From Alcaligenaceae bacterium (GTDB lineage Bacteria; Pseudomonadota; Gammaproteobacteria; Burkholderiales; Burkholderiaceae_B), in assembly GCA_029268595.1 (NCBI GenBank), contig JAJUGB010000002.1, forward strand, positions 1-57,621: DNA of 57,621 bases. The letters run 5' to 3'. The notes beneath the pieces were generated by a model. That model had not been told where the DNA came from. It ran no database searches and saw nothing but the letters and a program-made list of their open reading frames with translations. Below are positions 10,333 through 49,530 of the stretch, piece after piece. How positions within the stretch are numbered: position 1 is the first letter of the stretch; every line of letters starts with the position of its first letter. Both the position numbers and the translations under genes were made by a program.

Positions 10333-10616
10333 ATCCACACCTTATGTGTAGTGGTCTCGCCAGATCAGCGGCAAGTGCTGTGCCTGCTTCCAACCCTGAA
10401 AAACGCGGGCCATTGCGTCGTACACACGGCGTTACCGTTCGGGGCCCTTGAACTTGGCTAGCCCCCTGGGCAATAAGGAAATCGGCCAGTTCGCAAAAGG
10501 TGGCGAAATCTCATCTATCCGAGAGCGTTTTCAATGACAAGTTGGCACGAGGTTTGCTATGGATGTGTCGAGTCCGCTGTGGATCACACGGTTCACCACT
10601 CTATAGGGAGAATGTT

Positions 10617-11588
10617 ATGAAGAAGACTATAGCGATTGCGATTTGCTCCTTGCCATTTGCGCTGACCCCACTGGCTTACGCTCAGACCGGGGGCGCCACC
10701 GCAGGGGGCCCAGCCGCGTCGGGCGCATCGACGCCAAACACGGAAAAGGATCCTGCGAATACTTCTGCAGCCACCGATCCAGACCGCATGAGCGCCAACA
10801 GCAGCTCAGGCGCTGCCGCCAACCGTTCGGCTGACGGCACTTCGTCCACCGAGACGACCCAAAGCAATACAAACCGTACCGGCAACAACCCGGGCGACGG
10901 TGGCGCTAGCGGCCCGACCGACCACACCACTCGAGCCGATGCCGGCGCGGCAGGCTCGCACACTAGCGGCCAGAACCCCGCTTCCAATAACCAACAGTCG
11001 GCCGGAAACACCGGAGGCGCGTCCAATCAAAGCCAAGGCGCATCAGGCGGCGGAGCGGCTGCTGGAGGCGCCGGCGGGGCTGCATCCGGCAGTGCTGGCT
11101 CCGGTGCGAGCGGCGGCTCGGGCGGCATGAGCCCCAGCACTGGCGGCGGCAACATGACTGAAGTGGAAAGCGTTCGTGAGCAACTGCTGGGCAAATCAGT
11201 ATTCAACGAAAACAACGACAAAATCGGCGACATCAACGACGTCGTGTTGGGCCCTGACAATAAGGCCACCGAAGTGGTTGTCGGTGTCGGCGGATTCATT
11301 GGTGTCGGTGAGCGCAAGGTAGCCGTACCCTTTGACCGCATCTCCAAGAGCACGGATGGTGACAAGTTGATTTTGGCTGGCTACACCAAAGACCAGTTGA
11401 AGGAAATGCCTGAATACCAGGCGCCCAACGACCGCGACAACGACAACGCTGATCGCGGCGACATTCGACCGGCTGCGCCTGGTGCCGGCGGCACACGCGG
11501 TACTGAAGGTATGGGCACGGGCGGAACGCCCGGTGCCGGCGGCATGGGTACGGGTGCGCCCGGCACCAGCCCCGGCTCCACTCGCTAA
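10617..11588 (+). CDS. Secreted PRC-barrel domain protein with Gly/Ala/Ser-rich linkers
   Basis: The product has 323 residues. A Sec signal peptide (about 1-22, ending in AYA) precedes a long low-complexity region rich in Gly, Ala, Ser, Asn and Thr (about 23-180). A PRC-barrel domain follows (about 185-265; LLGKSVFNENNDKIGDINDV, VVGVGGFIGVGERKVAVPF), then a Gly-rich tail of GAGG/GMGTGG repeats. PRC-barrels bind partner proteins or RNA; in Burkholderiales such secreted forms are uncharacterised and often stress-induced. The ATG at 10617 has AGGGAG upstream and is preferred over earlier in-frame codons. Confidence 0.8.
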   Translation: MKKTIAIAICSLPFALTPLAYAQTGGATAGGPAASGASTPNTEKDPANTSAATDPDRMSANSSSGAAANRSADGTSSTETTQSNTNRTGNNPGDGGASGPTDHTTRADAGAAGSHTSGQNPASNNQQSAGNTGGASNQSQGASGGGAAAGGAGGAASGSAGSGASGGSGGMSPSTGGGNMTEVESVREQLLGKSVFNENNDKIGDINDVVLGPDNKATEVVVGVGGFIGVGERKVAVPFDRISKSTDGDKLILAGYTKDQLKEMPEYQAPNDRDNDNADRGDIRPAAPGAGGTRGTEGMGTGGTPGAGGMGTGAPGTSPGSTR

Positions 11589-43083: not shown

Positions 43084-43169
43084 TCGACTGCCCTCCCATG
43101 CGAGGCGATGTATTTCAATCTATTTCTTCCCCTTGCCACTGCGAGCTGTCGAAGGCACACTCTACGCCC

Positions 43170-43871
43170 ATGGAAGCACCCTTATTGAAAATTTTGGTCG
43201 TGGATGACGACCCGGCATTACGCCAGCTCTTGGCCGATTACCTGAATCGCCATGGGTATGACACCCTGCTGGCGCCCGATGCACGCGACCTGGAGTCGCG
43301 GATCCAGCGCTATGCACCCGACCTCATTGTGCTGGATCGGATGCTTCCAGAGGGAGACGGCGCAGAAGCCTGTCGCCGTCTGCGCCAGCAAGGCGAAGAT
43401 ATCCCCGTTATTTTACTGACAGGCCGAGACGAGACGGTGGACCGCATCATCGGACTGGAAGCGGGGGCGGATGATTACTTGGGCAAGCCCTTCGATCCGC
43501 GAGAACTTTTGGCTCGCATCGAGGCGGTACTTCGACGCAAGAAAGGCCCCTCCGCATTCAACAAGGGCAAACCGGTACAGTTCGGACCCTTTGTCTTCGA
43601 TCCGGCTACGCGAGTCCTGTCTCGCGACGACGTTCCCATTAAATTGACCGGCGGTGAAGTCAATCTCCTGGAAGCGCTGGTAGGTAATCCAGGCAAAGCA
43701 CTGTCTCGTGAGCGTTTGTTGGCGCTGGCACGCGACGACGAAGATGGTGAGCGCAGCGACCGGGCCATCGACATCGCCATTTTGCGGCTGCGTCGCGCCA
43801 TCGAGGACGACCCGAAACAACCACGCTGGATCCAGACTGTCTGGGGCGTGGGCTACCGCTTTTCCCCGTGA
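43170..43871 (+). CDS. OmpR-family response regulator
   Basis: A 233-residue regulator with a receiver domain. The acidic pocket is DDDPA, the phospho-acceptor is Asp56 in VLDRMLPEGDG, the Lys is in LGKPFDP. A winged-helix DNA-binding domain follows (about 135-230; GGEVNLLEALVGNPGKALSR, RRAIEDDP...TVWGVGYRF). I chose the ATG at 43170; earlier codons encode no receiver sequence. Its last four bases overlap the kinase gene. Confidence 0.92.
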   Translation: MEAPLLKILVVDDDPALRQLLADYLNRHGYDTLLAPDARDLESRIQRYAPDLIVLDRMLPEGDGAEACRRLRQQGEDIPVILLTGRDETVDRIIGLEAGADDYLGKPFDPRELLARIEAVLRRKKGPSAFNKGKPVQFGPFVFDPATRVLSRDDVPIKLTGGEVNLLEALVGNPGKALSRERLLALARDDEDGERSDRAIDIAILRLRRAIEDDPKQPRWIQTVWGVGYRFSP

Positions 43872-45274
43872 TGCGATTTCGCATCCCTTTGCCCCGCTCG
43901 CTCTGGTCGCGAGTCATACTTCTGACATTGGGCACGGTGTTGTTGGCGCAGGCTGCCACCCTTGCCACAGTGTCCTACTACCGCGAGCGCTTCACCGAAA
44001 CCGTCACCGTTCAAATAACGGCCACCACCATACGCACTTTACGGGCAGCTCTTGCCGAAATACCTGCCGAAGAGCGGGACGATTTTGTGCGCAGTGCCTC
44101 GCAGAACGAGTGGCACTTATGGTCGCGTCGGCTGCCCTCCAGCGCAGAATTGCAAGCCCGCCGCTCAAGCAGTCGGGCTGACGCCCCGCCTCCTCGCAAT
44201 GATCTGCGGCGCGAGTTGCGCAGCTTTGTGCGGGCGCTGAACCTTACCTTGGACGACGGGACGCGGGTCGGTTTATCTCGCGGAGCGAGTCCAAGGCTGT
44301 ATATCTCGCTATTGCCAGACAGTGGCCTGGACCCACGCGAAGATCGTGAATGGCTGGTGGTTCCGCTGGACAAGCTGTCTCCACCGGTTGCCACGCCCGC
44401 GATTATTGCGTGGTTGGCGGGCATGGGTGCACTTTTATTACTTGCCGGCGCGTTCTCCTGGCATATCACGCGGCCCCTGACCCGCCTGGCCCGGGCAGCC
44501 GACCAGCTTGCATCCGGGCAGCCGCAACGAGTGATCCCTTCGGGGCCGCGTGAAACGCGCATCCTGGGTGAACGATTCAACGCCATGCTGGATGCGCTTT
44601 CCGAATCGGAAGCGGTGCGTCGGACACTCCTGGCTGGGCTGCCACATGATTTAAAAGGCCCGTTATCCCGGATGTGGCTTCGGATAGAGATGATGGACTC
44701 CGACGCCGGTTTAAAGGAAGGCCTGCGTAACGACGTCCAGGATATGCAGCGCATGGTCAACCAGTTCATCGGCTTCGTCCGCGGCTCCGATCCAGCCACT
44801 TATCAATTGGCGCCACTGGACTTAGGCGTATGGCTGGAAGAGCAGGTGGCCGCATGGGAAAGCACCGGAAGCGCAGTAAGCCTGCGAACCGGCGCTCCCT
44901 CAGGAATGGTGCTGCACGCCGACCGACTCGCCCTGGCGCGCTTGCTGGACAATCTGATCACTAACGCACTCAATCACGGAGCTCCGCCCGTGAAGATCGG
45001 GCTCTATCGCGACAACGACGTAGCCGTCATTACTGTGTCTGATCAGGGCCCCGGTATCTCAGAGGACCGACGCCACGAAGCCATGCGACCATTTTCGCGC
45101 CTGGACGAAGCTCGTACACGTACCGGCTCTGTAGGACTGGGCCTGGCTTTGTGCGAGGCCATTGCTCGTGCCCATCGGGGCAGCATTGCTCTCGGTTCTG
45201 CCAGGTGCGGCGGCGGACTGGAAGTGACTGTCCGCCTGCCCCTTGCGAGCAAAGAAGTAGGCGTTCAGGCTTGA
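43868..45274 (+). CDS. EnvZ-like sensor histidine kinase
   Basis: A 468-residue membrane kinase: TM1 (about 13-35), a periplasmic sensor region (about 36-175), and TM2 (about 176-198). HAMP follows (about 198-250; SWHITRPLTRLARAADQLASG), then the phosphoacceptor His260 in LPHDLKGPLSR and an ATPase domain (N box DNLITNALNHG, DQGPGI, GSVGLGLAL). It overlaps its regulator by ATGA. Its stop overlaps that of cydB-like by 10 bases. The signal is unknown; the neighbouring bd-like genes are possible targets. Confidence 0.92.
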   Translation: MMRFRIPLPRSLWSRVILLTLGTVLLAQAATLATVSYYRERFTETVTVQITATTIRTLRAALAEIPAEERDDFVRSASQNEWHLWSRRLPSSAELQARRSSSRADAPPPRNDLRRELRSFVRALNLTLDDGTRVGLSRGASPRLYISLLPDSGLDPREDREWLVVPLDKLSPPVATPAIIAWLAGMGALLLLAGAFSWHITRPLTRLARAADQLASGQPQRVIPSGPRETRILGERFNAMLDALSESEAVRRTLLAGLPHDLKGPLSRMWLRIEMMDSDAGLKEGLRNDVQDMQRMVNQFIGFVRGSDPATYQLAPLDLGVWLEEQVAAWESTGSAVSLRTGAPSGMVLHADRLALARLLDNLITNALNHGAPPVKIGLYRDNDVAVITVSDQGPGISEDRRHEAMRPFSRLDEARTRTGSVGLGLALCEAIARAHRGSIALGSARCGGGLEVTVRLPLASKEVGVQA

Positions 45275-46323
45275 TTGGGTGCGTATGGTCGAGGTTGCGG
45301 CGGACGAGTGGGACCCAGCATGCTCCAATACACCCATAAATTGAAAATAAAGGCCACGGGTAGCGCCACAATTGCGCCGGCCAGAATCAATCGCATGGAG
45401 TCCACCGAAGCGGCCGCATCCCATATCGTGATGTTGTCCAGCACCAGGTAGGGAAAAAAGCTGTAGGCGATCCCGGCCAGTATCAATACAAATACCAGCC
45501 AGGTCATCAAGAATGGCAAGGCGGTAGTGCGCAAACTGGCATTGACCATGCGCCTTAGGGTTATCTCTATGCTCATGAAGCACACGAAGAGAACCACCCA
45601 AATTGCAGCTACTGCCCCCAGCGGCGGCCCGTCGCTCCAGCGCAAAAAAACGCCCGTATTGCTAAGTGCCAGCACTATGGAAACCGCAACGGCGCCAGCC
45701 GCCACCCACCGCACCGCTTGGCGTCCCCATACAATCGCGCGAATGCGCAGGTGGCCCGCTTCTCGCATAATGAGCCATGTTGCGCCCAATAGAGCATAAG
45801 CGGCCAGCACACATATTCCAATGAACGCGGAAAACGCAAGATTACCCATCTGCGGCCCGGAGCCGACAATAAGCTGCGCCAGCAACAAACCGTGCGCCAA
45901 AGCGGTCATGACCGAGCCAATGGCAAAGCCCCGTATCCACGGCGACTGGAACTCTACCGGGGCACGCAAACGAAGTTCGAATGAGACAAAACGGATAAAC
46001 ACCCCCAACGCCATCAGCGTCAACGGCAAATACAAGGGCTCCATGATGTCTCCCCAGGCTTTGGGAAAGACCGACACAAACAGCCCCAGGCCCAGAAATA
46101 GCCAATAGGCATTGGCATCGCGCCATGGGCCCAATAAAACCATCATTCGCGTTCTGGATCCGGTCGGGGCAAGAAGTAATAGACAACCCACCCCGATGTC
46201 GAAACCATCCAGAAGGGCGCCCGCCGTGATGACTGCAAAAAGCACGGCCATGAAGACCAGGGGCATCCAGAAAAGCGGGTCGTGCGCGCTGAAGCCCAGG
46301 AGATTGACAAGGGAGTCGATCAT
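45265..46323 (-). CDS. Cytochrome bd-type subunit II-like protein (CydB family)
   Basis: A 352-residue, eight-helix membrane protein matching CydB. LLDGFDIGVGCLLLLAP and GPWRDANAYWL correspond to DGFDMGVG and GPxWDGNEVWL of the family. The Asp of the second motif is kept, but the following Gly, Glu and Val are changed. It overlaps the cydA-like gene by 4 bases. Because its partner lacks heme ligands, the assignment of function as an oxidase is doubtful. Confidence 0.75.
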   Translation of the reverse strand: MIDSLVNLLGFSAHDPLFWMPLVFMAVLFAVITAGALLDGFDIGVGCLLLLAPTGSRTRMMVLLGPWRDANAYWLFLGLGLFVSVFPKAWGDIMEPLYLPLTLMALGVFIRFVSFELRLRAPVEFQSPWIRGFAIGSVMTALAHGLLLAQLIVGSGPQMGNLAFSAFIGICVLAAYALLGATWLIMREAGHLRIRAIVWGRQAVRWVAAGAVAVSIVLALSNTGVFLRWSDGPPLGAVAAIWVVLFVCFMSIEITLRRMVNASLRTTALPFLMTWLVFVLILAGIAYSFFPYLVLDNITIWDAAASVDSMRLILAGAIVALPVAFIFNLWVYWSMLGPTRPPQPRPYAPNQA

Positions 46324-47660
46324 GCCCTGCCCCGCCGCCGCGCCACCGGGATGACGCCGTAGTGGCTGATGTGACGCAGCAACTGATAGAAGGCACCCAC
46401 GAATATCAGGTAAACCAGCGCATGCACTAACAATCCTGCACTAAGCAGGGCCGCTGGTTGCGTGGCACTGACCTCGGCCAACGTTACCGTATTGTTCACC
46501 GCCCAGGGAGAGAGGCCCAGTAGCACGTGGCAAAGGATGGCGGCGCCCAGCACCCACCCGATGAACATGGAGGCCGACAGCAGGCGACGGCTTGTACGGC
46601 TCAGGTGAGCGGGGTCCCCGTCATGCCGCCTTAAACGCAGGTAAGAGGCGATGGCCATCAAAACCATAAATAGGCTTGCCGCCCACGCTATGCGGAACGA
46701 CCAGAAGGTGGCCGACACGGGGGCGTGCATGCCTGCATAGCGATCCAACCCCAAGCTTTGGCCCTGTGTGTCCTGCCCCAGCCAAGAAGCTGCCGCTCCC
46801 GGCAGGCGGAGGGCGTATCGGGTCTCCTGACGAGCTGCGTCTGGCCAGCCCACAAGGGGAAAATCAGTCGCCGCGCCCGTTTTCCAATACCCCATGGTGG
46901 CCGCCGCCTTGGCAGGCTGGTGCTGAGCCATGTCCTGACCGTACCCCACCAAGGCAAGCGTCAGAACCAGCCCGGCACCCAAAGCCAGGTGCTGCCCGGT
47001 GCGAAACGATAGCAGTTCGCCTTCGCTCAGGGGATGACGCATGCTCTGTCTGGCGCTGACGCCCAGTAAAAGAAAAGCTGCCGTCAGCGCTGCGCCTGAC
47101 CCAAGCAAAGCGGCCAACCACGGCATGGAGGGGTTGCCTGCGATGTCAGCCCAGTTCATCACGAGATATTCCCCGTTTATCAGTACCGAACCGGTGGGCG
47201 TCTGCATCCAGGATTGAAGAATGACCATGCACAGGGACGCGAGCGTCACGCCGACAGCGACCATGGCAACGACCAAGGTATGTACGCGATCAGACAGTTG
47301 ACGCTGGCCGAAAAGCATGGCGCCGAGAAAGCAGGATTTGAAGATGAAGGTGGTGAGAATGGCTGCTGCAATTAAGGGCCCTGCAATGTTTCCGATGCGA
47401 TCCATCAGCCCCGGCCATAGGCTGCCGATCTGGATCAATACCGGAATGCTGGCGGCGAAAGCCAGGACGGAAGCCAGCGCGAACACCCGCACCCAGAACC
47501 GATATGCCGCTATCCACCCCGGCCCCTTGGTGAAATGGGCGCCAAGCTTGAAAAACAGGAGCGTCCACGACAAACCCAACTCGATAAGCAAGAATAAGGT
47601 TAGAAATCCCAGACTGACGAGGAAATGGATTTGTGTAAGCCAGAGCGAGGCATTCGTCAT
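46320..47660 (-). CDS. Divergent CydA-like protein lacking heme ligands
   Basis: A 446-residue, nine-helix protein clearly aligned with CydA/CioA: WxxxxxIGNIAGPL, FLGAMLFG, SWMQTPTGS, and the Q-loop piece QPAKAAATMGYW. Yet the residues that bind hemes in CydA are gone. The H19 position is Gly18 or a neighbour; H186 falls in WLAALLGSG (181-189) with no His; and M393 is Ala325 in SFRIAW. The Glu of FLEAxF is Lys108, the Q-loop Glu is Met256, and GRQPW reads GLSPW. I use ATG 47660. It is very unlikely to be an ordinary quinol oxidase; its role is unknown. Confidence 0.78.
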   Translation of the reverse strand: MTNASLWLTQIHFLVSLGFLTLFLLIELGLSWTLLFFKLGAHFTKGPGWIAAYRFWVRVFALASVLAFAASIPVLIQIGSLWPGLMDRIGNIAGPLIAAAILTTFIFKSCFLGAMLFGQRQLSDRVHTLVVAMVAVGVTLASLCMVILQSWMQTPTGSVLINGEYLVMNWADIAGNPSMPWLAALLGSGAALTAAFLLLGVSARQSMRHPLSEGELLSFRTGQHLALGAGLVLTLALVGYGQDMAQHQPAKAAATMGYWKTGAATDFPLVGWPDAARQETRYALRLPGAAASWLGQDTQGQSLGLDRYAGMHAPVSATFWSFRIAWAASLFMVLMAIASYLRLRRHDGDPAHLSRTSRRLLSASMFIGWVLGAAILCHVLLGLSPWAVNNTVTLAEVSATQPAALLSAGLLVHALVYLIFVGAFYQLLRHISHYGVIPVARRRGRA

Positions 47661-47772
47661 AATGCGCGCTAGTTTAGAGCGTCTTGACGCATAATGGCTA
47701 CACGCCGCGGAGCAAACATTTCCTAACATGGCAAAATGCCTATTTCGGCGATCTTTCGTTCACTCTATTTGT

Positions 47773-49530
47773 ATGACCCCCCCAGCCACAACCACCCCCA
47801 CGTCCAACTTCCTTCGCACCATCATTGAAAATGACCTGGCTGCTGGCCGTCACGCGGATAAACGCTGGGCCGGAAGGCCCGGCCCAGCGTCGGTCCAGAA
47901 AGACGCTCCACTCGATACGGCGCGCATTCGCACCCGCTTCCCGCCCGAACCCAATGGCTACTTGCACATTGGCCACGCGAAAAGCATCTGCATCAACTTT
48001 GGCATGGCCGGCGATTACGAAGGCGCCTGCCATCTGCGCTTCGATGACACCAACCCCGAGAAAGAAGAAGAAGAATACGTTCGGGCGATTATCGAGGCGG
48101 TGAAGTGGCTGGGGTTCGACTGGAAGTACAAGAATGAAGAGAATCTTTACTTTGCCAGCGATTACTTCGAGTACATGTACGAATTCGCTCAGTCGCTGAT
48201 TCGCGCGGGTGACGCTTACGTAGACGAACAATCACCGGAAGAGATTCGGGCAACACGGGGCACCCTGACTGAAAAAGGCACGAACTCGCCCTGGCGAGAT
48301 CGGCCCGCTGAAGAGTCGCTGGCACTGCTGGCCGAAATGCGTGCAGGCAAGCATCCGGACGGCAGCTTGGCCTTGCGGGCCAAAATCGATATGGGCTCGC
48401 CCAATATCAATATGCGTGATCCGGTCCTGTACCGAATTCGCCATACTGCGCACCATCGCACGGGCACAGACTGGTGCATCTATCCGATGTACACCTGGGC
48501 GCATCCGGTAGAAGACGCTTTAGAGGGCATTACGCACAGCTTTTGCACGCTCGAGTTCGAAGATCAAAGACCCTTCTACGATTGGATCCTCAATAAACTG
48601 GCCGACCAGGGCCAACTGTGCCGGCCCTTGCCGCAGCAGTATGAATTCGCCCGCTTGAACCTAAGTTATGTAGTGACAAGCAAACGCAAGCTTCTTCAGC
48701 TGGTGCAAGAAGGCCATGTCCATGGGTGGGACGATCCCCGCATGCCGACCTTGGCCGGCCTGCGTCGTCGTGGCTACACTCCGGAATCCATACGCCTTTT
48801 CTGTGAACGCCTCGGCGTGTCGAAGGCCGATTCTCGCATCGATTACAGCGTGCTCGAACAAGCCTTGCGGGACGACCTCGACCCCAAAGCCGAGCGCCGC
48901 GTCGCCGTACTCGACCCACTCAAATTGGTCATTACCAACTACCCTGAAGGACAGTCGGAAGTGTGCCAGGCGCCCCGCAATCCGCATGATCCGGATGCAG
49001 GCAAACGCGAATTTCCTTTTTCCCGCGAACTCTGGATTGAACGAGACGATTTCCGCGAAGACCCGCCCAAGAAGTACTTCCGGCTCTTCCCAGGCAATAC
49101 CGTGCGGCTCAAGTACGGCTATGTTGTCAAGTGCACCGGTTGCGTCAAGGACGAACACGGTGAAGTTGTGGAGGTTCATGCCGAGTACCTGCCTGATACC
49201 AAGAGCGGCACACCAGGGTCCGACTCGGTCAAGGTCAAGGGCAATATCACTTGGGTAAGTGCGCAACACGCTGTGGCGGCTGAAATTCGCCTTTACGACC
49301 GGCTCTTTGCCGATCCGCACCCAGACGCCGGCGATAAAAACTTCCTGGAAGCGCTCAATCCCAATTCAGTTCAAATAGTGCAAGGTTGGCTCGAACCGGG
49401 CATTGTTGCAGCGCCTGAGTCACATTGGCAGTTCGAACGCCTGGGCTATTTTGTGGCCGATCGAATCGACTCCTCGCCTGAACGGCCCGTCATAAACCGC
49501 ACCGCCACGCTGCGCGATTCCTGGGTATAA
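47773..49530 (+). CDS. glnS: Glutaminyl-tRNA synthetase
   Basis: Charges tRNA-Gln. The 585 residues have the HIGH motif in [41 protein letters not shown], and the KMSKS equivalent VTSKRKL. The C-terminal anticodon-binding beta barrels include [12 protein letters not shown] use ATG 47773; 15 earlier codons are not family-like. The upstream 112 bases are shared with the divergent bd-like pair. minC starts 3 bases after the stop codon. Confidence 0.96.

Follow-up and report, generated by a model that had tools for sequence, protein, structure and literature searches.

A 57,621-nucleotide stretch of DNA from an Alcaligenaceae bacterium (contig JAJUGB010000002.1), analysed as a whole and referred to here as the window, carries a pair of genes that resemble cydA and cydB, the genes for the two subunits of cytochrome bd oxidase. 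Databases and papers class this two-gene complex as an oxygen-consuming cytochrome bd. The bd superfamily is understood as a group of oxygen reductases built around heme-binding helices. In subunit I from the window the heme sites are lost, along with most of the quinol and redox residues, and the pair is probably a heme-free pseudo-oxidase, i.e. a CydAB descended from a CIO-type cytochrome bd and kept as a non-redox membrane complex. It is highly likely from the sequences that this heme-less CydAB does not reduce oxygen, and we infer that the normal sites of subunit I hold no heme. The genes and residues concerned are listed below; residues were mapped by MAFFT alignment to CydA of E. coli K-12 (NC_000913), the numbering of which is used for all equivalent positions.

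46320..47660, minus strand: heme-less cydA-like gene for a putative pseudo-oxidase subunit I, 446 aa (translation, PF01654, AlphaFold2 model)
45265..46323, minus strand: cydB-like partner gene, 352 aa, its start overlapping the cydA stop by ATGA (PF02322)
47601..47603, minus strand: L20 at heme d ligand His19, ligand absent (alignment)
47361..47363, minus strand: A100 at Glu99 of the heme d site, residue absent (alignment)
47337..47339, minus strand: K108 at proton-path Glu107, Glu absent, a signature of the clade (alignment)
47106..47108, minus strand: L185 at heme b558 ligand His186, ligand absent (alignment)
46893..46895, minus strand: M256 at Q-loop Glu257, Glu absent, nearby K251 (Lys252) retained (alignment)
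46686..46688, minus strand: A325 at heme b558 ligand Met393, ligand absent (alignment)
46521..46523, minus strand: L380 at heme b595 ligand Glu445, ligand absent (alignment)

Loss of the heme sites

Homology to subunit I runs along the whole length of the window CydA, as the original prediction had claimed. PF01654 scores 257 bits over residues 9-434, and PF02322 matches the window CydB nearly full length with 172 bits (Pfam). The NCBIfam equivalog models score far under their cut-offs for the pair. Heme b558 is ligated by His186 and Met393, heme b595 by Glu445 and heme d by His19 (PMC8585947), and Glu99 is a residue of the heme d site (PMC6853902). The original prediction had reported H19, H186 and M393 as absent; the alignment bears this out and indicates that the loss was understated, E99 and E445 being gone too. 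The earlier calls of Lys108, Met256 and GLSPW in place of GRQPW were correct, with L383 and S384 at R448 and Q449. The window CydA retains K252 (K251), R391 (R323) and P450 (P385). Glu107 is reportedly a proton-path residue, as the title of a 2008 article by Borisov has it, and Lys252 and Glu257 are taken here to belong to the quinol site.

The five heme-site residues (H19, E99, H186, M393 and E445) were scored in 225 CydA rows from all searches, duplicates included. The distribution of retained ligands is two-peaked: five in 125 rows, four in 0, three in 1, two in 2, one in 12 and none in 85. Rows were divided into “intact” and “heme-less” (three or fewer ligands; 100 of the 225) at this gap, so that the retention of all five residues in all 119 distinct intact sequences is partly circular. 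The tree, E107K in CydA and W57R in CydB are checks separate from the split by ligand count. There are 85 distinct heme-less sequences, 81 of them with frames of at least 400 aa (L103, L104, L200 and L205 were dropped), and 78 of the 81 reach all five sites (L012, L171 and L201 miss the last two and were excluded). None of the five ligands is retained in 65 of these 78 sequences, one in 10, two in 2 and three in 1. Counted by residue, with the window included, His186 and Glu99 are each retained in 0, Met393 in 8, His19 in 5 and Glu445 in 4.

Position 107 is Lys in 79 and Arg in 2 of the 81 heme-less sequences, whereas each of the 119 distinct intact sequences has Glu there. Among the 78, Glu257 is retained in 0, R448 in 2, Q449 in 17, Lys252 in 60 and P450 in 77, and D239 is lost in 73. 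The Q-loop Pro is present in 81/81, and the Lys252 position is occupied by Lys in 60 and by Arg in 16 of the 81 rows. His12 of the window CydA was considered as a substitute for His19 and is unlikely to be a replacement ligand because its column, a retained Gln of intact oxidases, is Gln in 77/81 heme-less rows.

Origin within the CIO-type branch

A maximum-likelihood tree was built from 87 rows, namely 45 of the 85 heme-less sequences, 31 of 76 from the sister group and a further 11 intact ones, in a quick search, with the SH-like approximate likelihood-ratio test (SH-aLRT) as the only support measure and no bootstrap. All 45 heme-less rows form one clade (SH-aLRT 100, stem 0.88), which is nested among CIO-type CydA and lies away from the E. 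coli CydA side of the tree. Its sister (support 99) consists of two intact sequences, L166 of genome G170 and L167 of genome G052. Each of these genomes has a further copy, with 49% and 48% identity to the window gene, respectively. The CydAB pair is probably derived from CIO-type cytochrome bd within the Alcaligenaceae, the family of the window genome.

Rows near the base of the clade still hold some of the ligands and point to a stepwise loss. L193 retains H19, M393 and E445, L168 and L178 retain H19 and E445, and L169 retains H19; all four are without E99, E107, H186 and E257. Together with L197 and L176, these are the clade members with one to three ligands beyond Met393 alone. The tree should be read with caution, as its base is not resolved, the branches of L176 and L194 are long, and Met393 is the one ligand left in seven nested rows.

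When 200 genomes of the family were searched with P0001, about 125 had a copy of the heme-less type, going by a count of listed places, with residues read in part of these genomes. In the genus taken to hold Bordetella hinzii, 15/15 genomes have a match, 14 of them at 5.7e-128 or below, and the weakest match, L104 in G208, is fragmentary. Beyond the family, an order search (349 genomes) and a phylum search (398 genomes) were made at E ≤1e-80, and the best match per genome was read. All five ligands are intact in the best matches of all 109 distinct genomes except L269; weaker heme-less homologues beyond 1e-80 would escape. Convergent loss was not seen in these 109 genomes at that threshold, bar a lone H186P in L269. 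This sequence (from G666) is a CIO-type CydA with the other ligands intact; it is isolated and could be a sequencing error or an early loss.

The heme-less proteins resemble CIO-type cytochrome bd (L013, L117-L165, L166/L167) in their whole-length homology, short Q-loop, CydA-CydB pairing and predicted fold. Heme sites, E107, E257 and CydB W57 are intact in the CIO-type proteins, whereas they are lost or changed in the heme-less clade. Archaeal CydAA', known from the work of Murali in 2021, is reportedly an active oxygen reductase with b hemes. It likewise consists of paralogous bd-superfamily subunits that diverged after duplication, but the heme sites are gone only in the present group.

Selection on the gene pair

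Gene order was compared at 100 heme-less loci, some of which are the same gene fetched twice. The cydB gene directly follows cydA in 99/100 loci and glnS lies divergent beside cydA in 97/100. The ratio of nonsynonymous to synonymous substitution (dN/dS) was taken over unique pairs with dS 0.05-1.5, with duplicates removed, the pairs not being independent. The median is 0.173 (range 0.04-0.33; 75 pairs) for the heme-less group, similar to 0.191 (241 pairs) for intact oxidases. Under other limits (the 60 most similar pairs per group, repeats included) the medians are 0.170 and 0.130, respectively. These ratios indicate that the heme-less group is under purifying selection. A pseudogene or sequencing artefact was ruled out by dN/dS and by the existence of 78 different sequences covering the five sites.

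A slowly decaying, functionless duplicate would explain the truncated or interrupted copies in some relatives (L171, L200, L201 and L205), and the low expression and frequent breakage of the Bordetella counterpart discussed below would fit as well. The low dN/dS and the many full-reach sequences stand against decay, as do the residues fixed specifically in the clade and the conservation of CydB, which relative to that of CydA exceeds the level in working oxidases. Decay is largely refuted and now seems very improbable. The earlier description of a maintained gene with a CydB partner has thus gained support from synteny, purifying selection and unusually conserved CydB, and the same evidence, together with the single clade, supports its suggestion of a non-oxidase member of the bd superfamily.

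Predicted fold and the possibility of bound heme

The AlphaFold2 model of the window CydA is CydA-like (predicted local distance difference test, pLDDT, 83; predicted template modelling score, pTM, 0.85). The ten best Foldseek matches are all cytochrome bd chains aligned as subunit I, and VIA-align superposes the model on 7ose_A with Z 45.5 and a root-mean-square deviation (rmsd) of 3.2 over 432 residues. The CydB model (pLDDT 75) matches CydB chains, with a best VIA-align Z of 30.4 (9fka_B). By prediction, the bd fold is retained in a protein that has lost the His and Met residues of its heme sites.

A protein of this fold could still be a hemoprotein that binds heme through other residues and has some redox or oxygen-binding role. 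The ligands left in L193, L168 and L178 are in keeping with this, as is residue 144 of CydB (numbering of P0002), which lies mid-helix and is His in 57/80 and Gln in 22/80 heme-less sequences and Gln in 74/74 sister CydB. Most of the clade has no ligand at all, however, and no His is newly fixed mid-helix in its CydA, going by predicted helices; the CydA columns in which His reaches at least 70% are H127 and H430, both near predicted helix ends. Retention of heme by such means is therefore improbable.

NrfD/PsrC-type quinone-binding membrane subunits are heme-free helical membrane proteins. ActC (6btm_C) aligns to the CydA model with VIA-align Z 20.6, rmsd 3.9, 309 residues and 8% identity, and PsrC (2vpw_C) to the CydB model with Z 15.4, rmsd 4.7, 237 residues and 14% identity. 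At Z 13-21 and 7-14% identity for the family, and with canonical CydA possibly matching equally well, this is at most an analogy of how such a protein might work. The two subunit models (m11c0fb1f0199 and m04cba50bbb12) both match alternative complex III ActC-type chains (CydB also PsrC) above unrelated rows. A deep relation of CydA/CydB to the NrfD/PsrC folds is conceivable.

Shift of constraint to CydB and a charged channel

Conservation in the heme-less clade has moved from CydA to CydB. With the window row excluded, the similarity of CydB exceeds that of CydA in 95.6% of 3081 pairs from the heme-less clade. Among intact oxidases this holds for 6.0% of 2701 pairs in the sister group and 0.4% of 902 in the canonical group, the pairs not being independent. 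Sites with at least 95% conservation in each of the two intact groups divide in the same way: the clade has kept 26 and lost 41 in CydA, and has kept 11 and lost 3 in CydB. Residues newly fixed in CydB of the clade include R187, R205, W206, N222, W242, E253 and D296.

The cytoplasmic proton channel of E. coli bd comprises D119A, K57A, K109B, D105B, Y379B and D58B, the last letter denoting the subunit (PMC6853902). At the CydA positions, heme-less sequences have K57R in 81/81 and D119R in 76/81. At the CydB positions, D58 is retained in 78/80, and D105E and K109R are each present in 80/80. Beside Asp58, Trp57 of CydB is Arg in 79/80 heme-less sequences and Trp in 117/117 intact rows; the window residue is as follows.

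46120..46122, minus strand: CydB R68 at Trp57, next to channel Asp58, forming a paired signature (alignment)

E107K in CydA and W57R in CydB are marks of the clade; they were not among the criteria that define the group and are absent from intact oxidases. Since Arg, Lys or Glu has been fixed at channel positions and both W57R and E107K are present, the channel appears to have been recharged and fixed as the heme core drifted.

Neighbouring genes and partners

The neighbours of the pair in the window, named from sequence by eye, are the following.

43098..45274, plus strand: response regulator and histidine kinase genes, convergent to cydAB
47728..49530, plus strand: glnS, divergent

The stop ends of cydB and the histidine kinase gene overlap by about 10 bases (45265-45274). 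Elsewhere in the window, 10500-11588 encodes a protein with long low-complexity stretches rich in Gly/Ala/Ser/Asn.

One use for a heme-less CydAB would be sensing of quinone or membrane redox state, with quinone bound through the retained Q-loop and a signal passed perhaps to the adjacent two-component system. The conserved Q-loop Pro and the Lys or Arg at position 252 fit such a sensor. A convergent histidine kinase match is found in 65/100 heme-less loci, although many of these matches are short. The convergent orientation speaks against an operon, and the loss of E257 and, in most sequences, of D239 also counts against the sensor. The cydAB pair also persists where the place of the kinase is taken by clcA (L177, L179, L181, L197 and L198), recQ (L176 and L196) or minC (L193). 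The two-component system is hence a frequent but not obligatory neighbour, and these replacements weaken a dedicated sensor role tied to this system, a sensor having been one of the guesses of the original prediction. Sensing is unlikely, if less so than the partner role considered next.

Pseudo-enzymes often regulate active relatives, and the pair could act on other respiratory complexes as an accessory, an assembly factor or an inhibitor, for example by pairing with canonical CydA/CydB. Many genomes with a heme-less copy also carry a canonical CydA. The window genome has one on contig 10 (L014; 563 bits) with all ligands intact. In three genomes that are 99% complete (G006, G041 and G127), by contrast, the heme-less type is the sole CydA homologue, with its ligands read as lost (L194/L232 in G006, L228 in G041 and L073/L227 in G127) and no CydD over the cut-off. 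CydD over the cut-off is absent in 6/12 genomes, including that of the window with its canonical CydA, so that co-occurrence with CydD is uninformative. Since it is the sole homologue in these three genomes, heme-less CydAB cannot serve solely as a partner of canonical bd, and the assembly role proposed at the outset for a bd oxidase is disfavoured. A role with a heme-copper oxidase would remain compatible; a partner role of any kind is rather doubtful.

The probable Bordetella counterpart

A probable member of the group has been studied in Bordetella, which includes the whooping-cough agent and its relatives. The cydAB3 genes of B. bronchiseptica (BB4012-4011) are predicted by computational annotation to encode a high-affinity bd oxidase (PMC11257404), and cydAB3 or BP3224-BP3225 is called a bd oxidase in three papers (PMC11257404; PMC13367067; PMC12914433). 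Deletion coordinates place about 1338 bases, i.e. about 446 codons, between the starts of cydA3 and cydB3 (PMC11257404). BB4011 corresponds to BP3224, which has a C/G tract of 9 (PMC1891110). L098, the copy in genome G091, is of the heme-less type, and downstream of cydA its cydB region contains an 11-G run. This genome has 236 IS481 primer matches, presumably a number typical of B. pertussis. From the codon number, the C/G tract and the features of G091, cydAB3/BP3224-25 very probably belongs to the same orthologous group as the heme-less clade. The canonical CydA copies read in this genus have all ligands intact.

Deletion of cyd3 alone left B. bronchiseptica growing like the wild type, and persistence in mice did not depend on any one oxidase (PMC11257404). 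The cyd3 transcript level was like that of the silent flaA, and attempts to make a strain with cyd3 as its sole terminal system were unsuccessful (PMC11257404), which would fit a complex that does not reduce oxygen. The word “ligand” does not occur in PMC11257404, and a literature search, which left most subscription journals outside its coverage, found no mention of missing heme ligands in this group in the portions of papers it reached.

Proposed function

The best guess from the sequences is transport, already among the guesses of the original prediction, or an ion path, preferred over quinone sensing and over a partner role. Residue mapping points tentatively, at somewhat under even odds, to a transport or ion/proton-path function with CydB and the recharged channel at its core. 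The working part would be CydB together with the charged cytoplasmic half-channel where CydA and CydB meet, formed by R58, R120 and K108 of CydA and R68, D69, E116 and R120 of CydB. This half-channel would conduct or couple a proton, another small ion or a solute. The fuller account is a little less likely still: a terminal oxidase would have turned into a heme-free transporter or ion pathway through CydB and a channel recharged by E107K and W57R, losing E99, E107, H186 and E257 and then M393, E445 and H19, and the new function would have been kept across the Alcaligenaceae.

Several observations weigh against the pseudo-oxidase reading or its transport part. For the transport part, intact oxidases are variable at CydA residues 57 and 119, the new charges may do no more than fill space left by heme, and the CydA model is less confident over residues 61-110 (block means 62-82). 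The enrichment of His144 in CydB makes a non-standard heme ligation conceivable, and the presence of up to three ligands in L193 and of Met393 in a minority of the clade also counts on that side. Quinone binding is possible because the Q-loop Pro and Lys are mostly retained. The lack of a cyd3-only strain may be due to the very weak transcription of cyd3, and the corresponding strains for cco, cio, ctaD2 and cyo2 could not be made either (PMC11257404). The gene is broken in 7/14 B. pertussis strains surveyed (PMC11257404), so that cyd3 is dispensable in that species.

Significance

A conserved heme-less branch would break the definition of the bd superfamily as oxygen reductases. It may also allow a respiratory enzyme to be seen in the course of being repurposed, with living intermediates. 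In papers from 2024-2026 the probable Bordetella member is listed among the bd oxidases of respiratory inventories, and one of them inactivates it as a “second” bd oxidase. For proteins of the Alcaligenaceae that match PF01654, the ligands should be checked before they are called oxidases.

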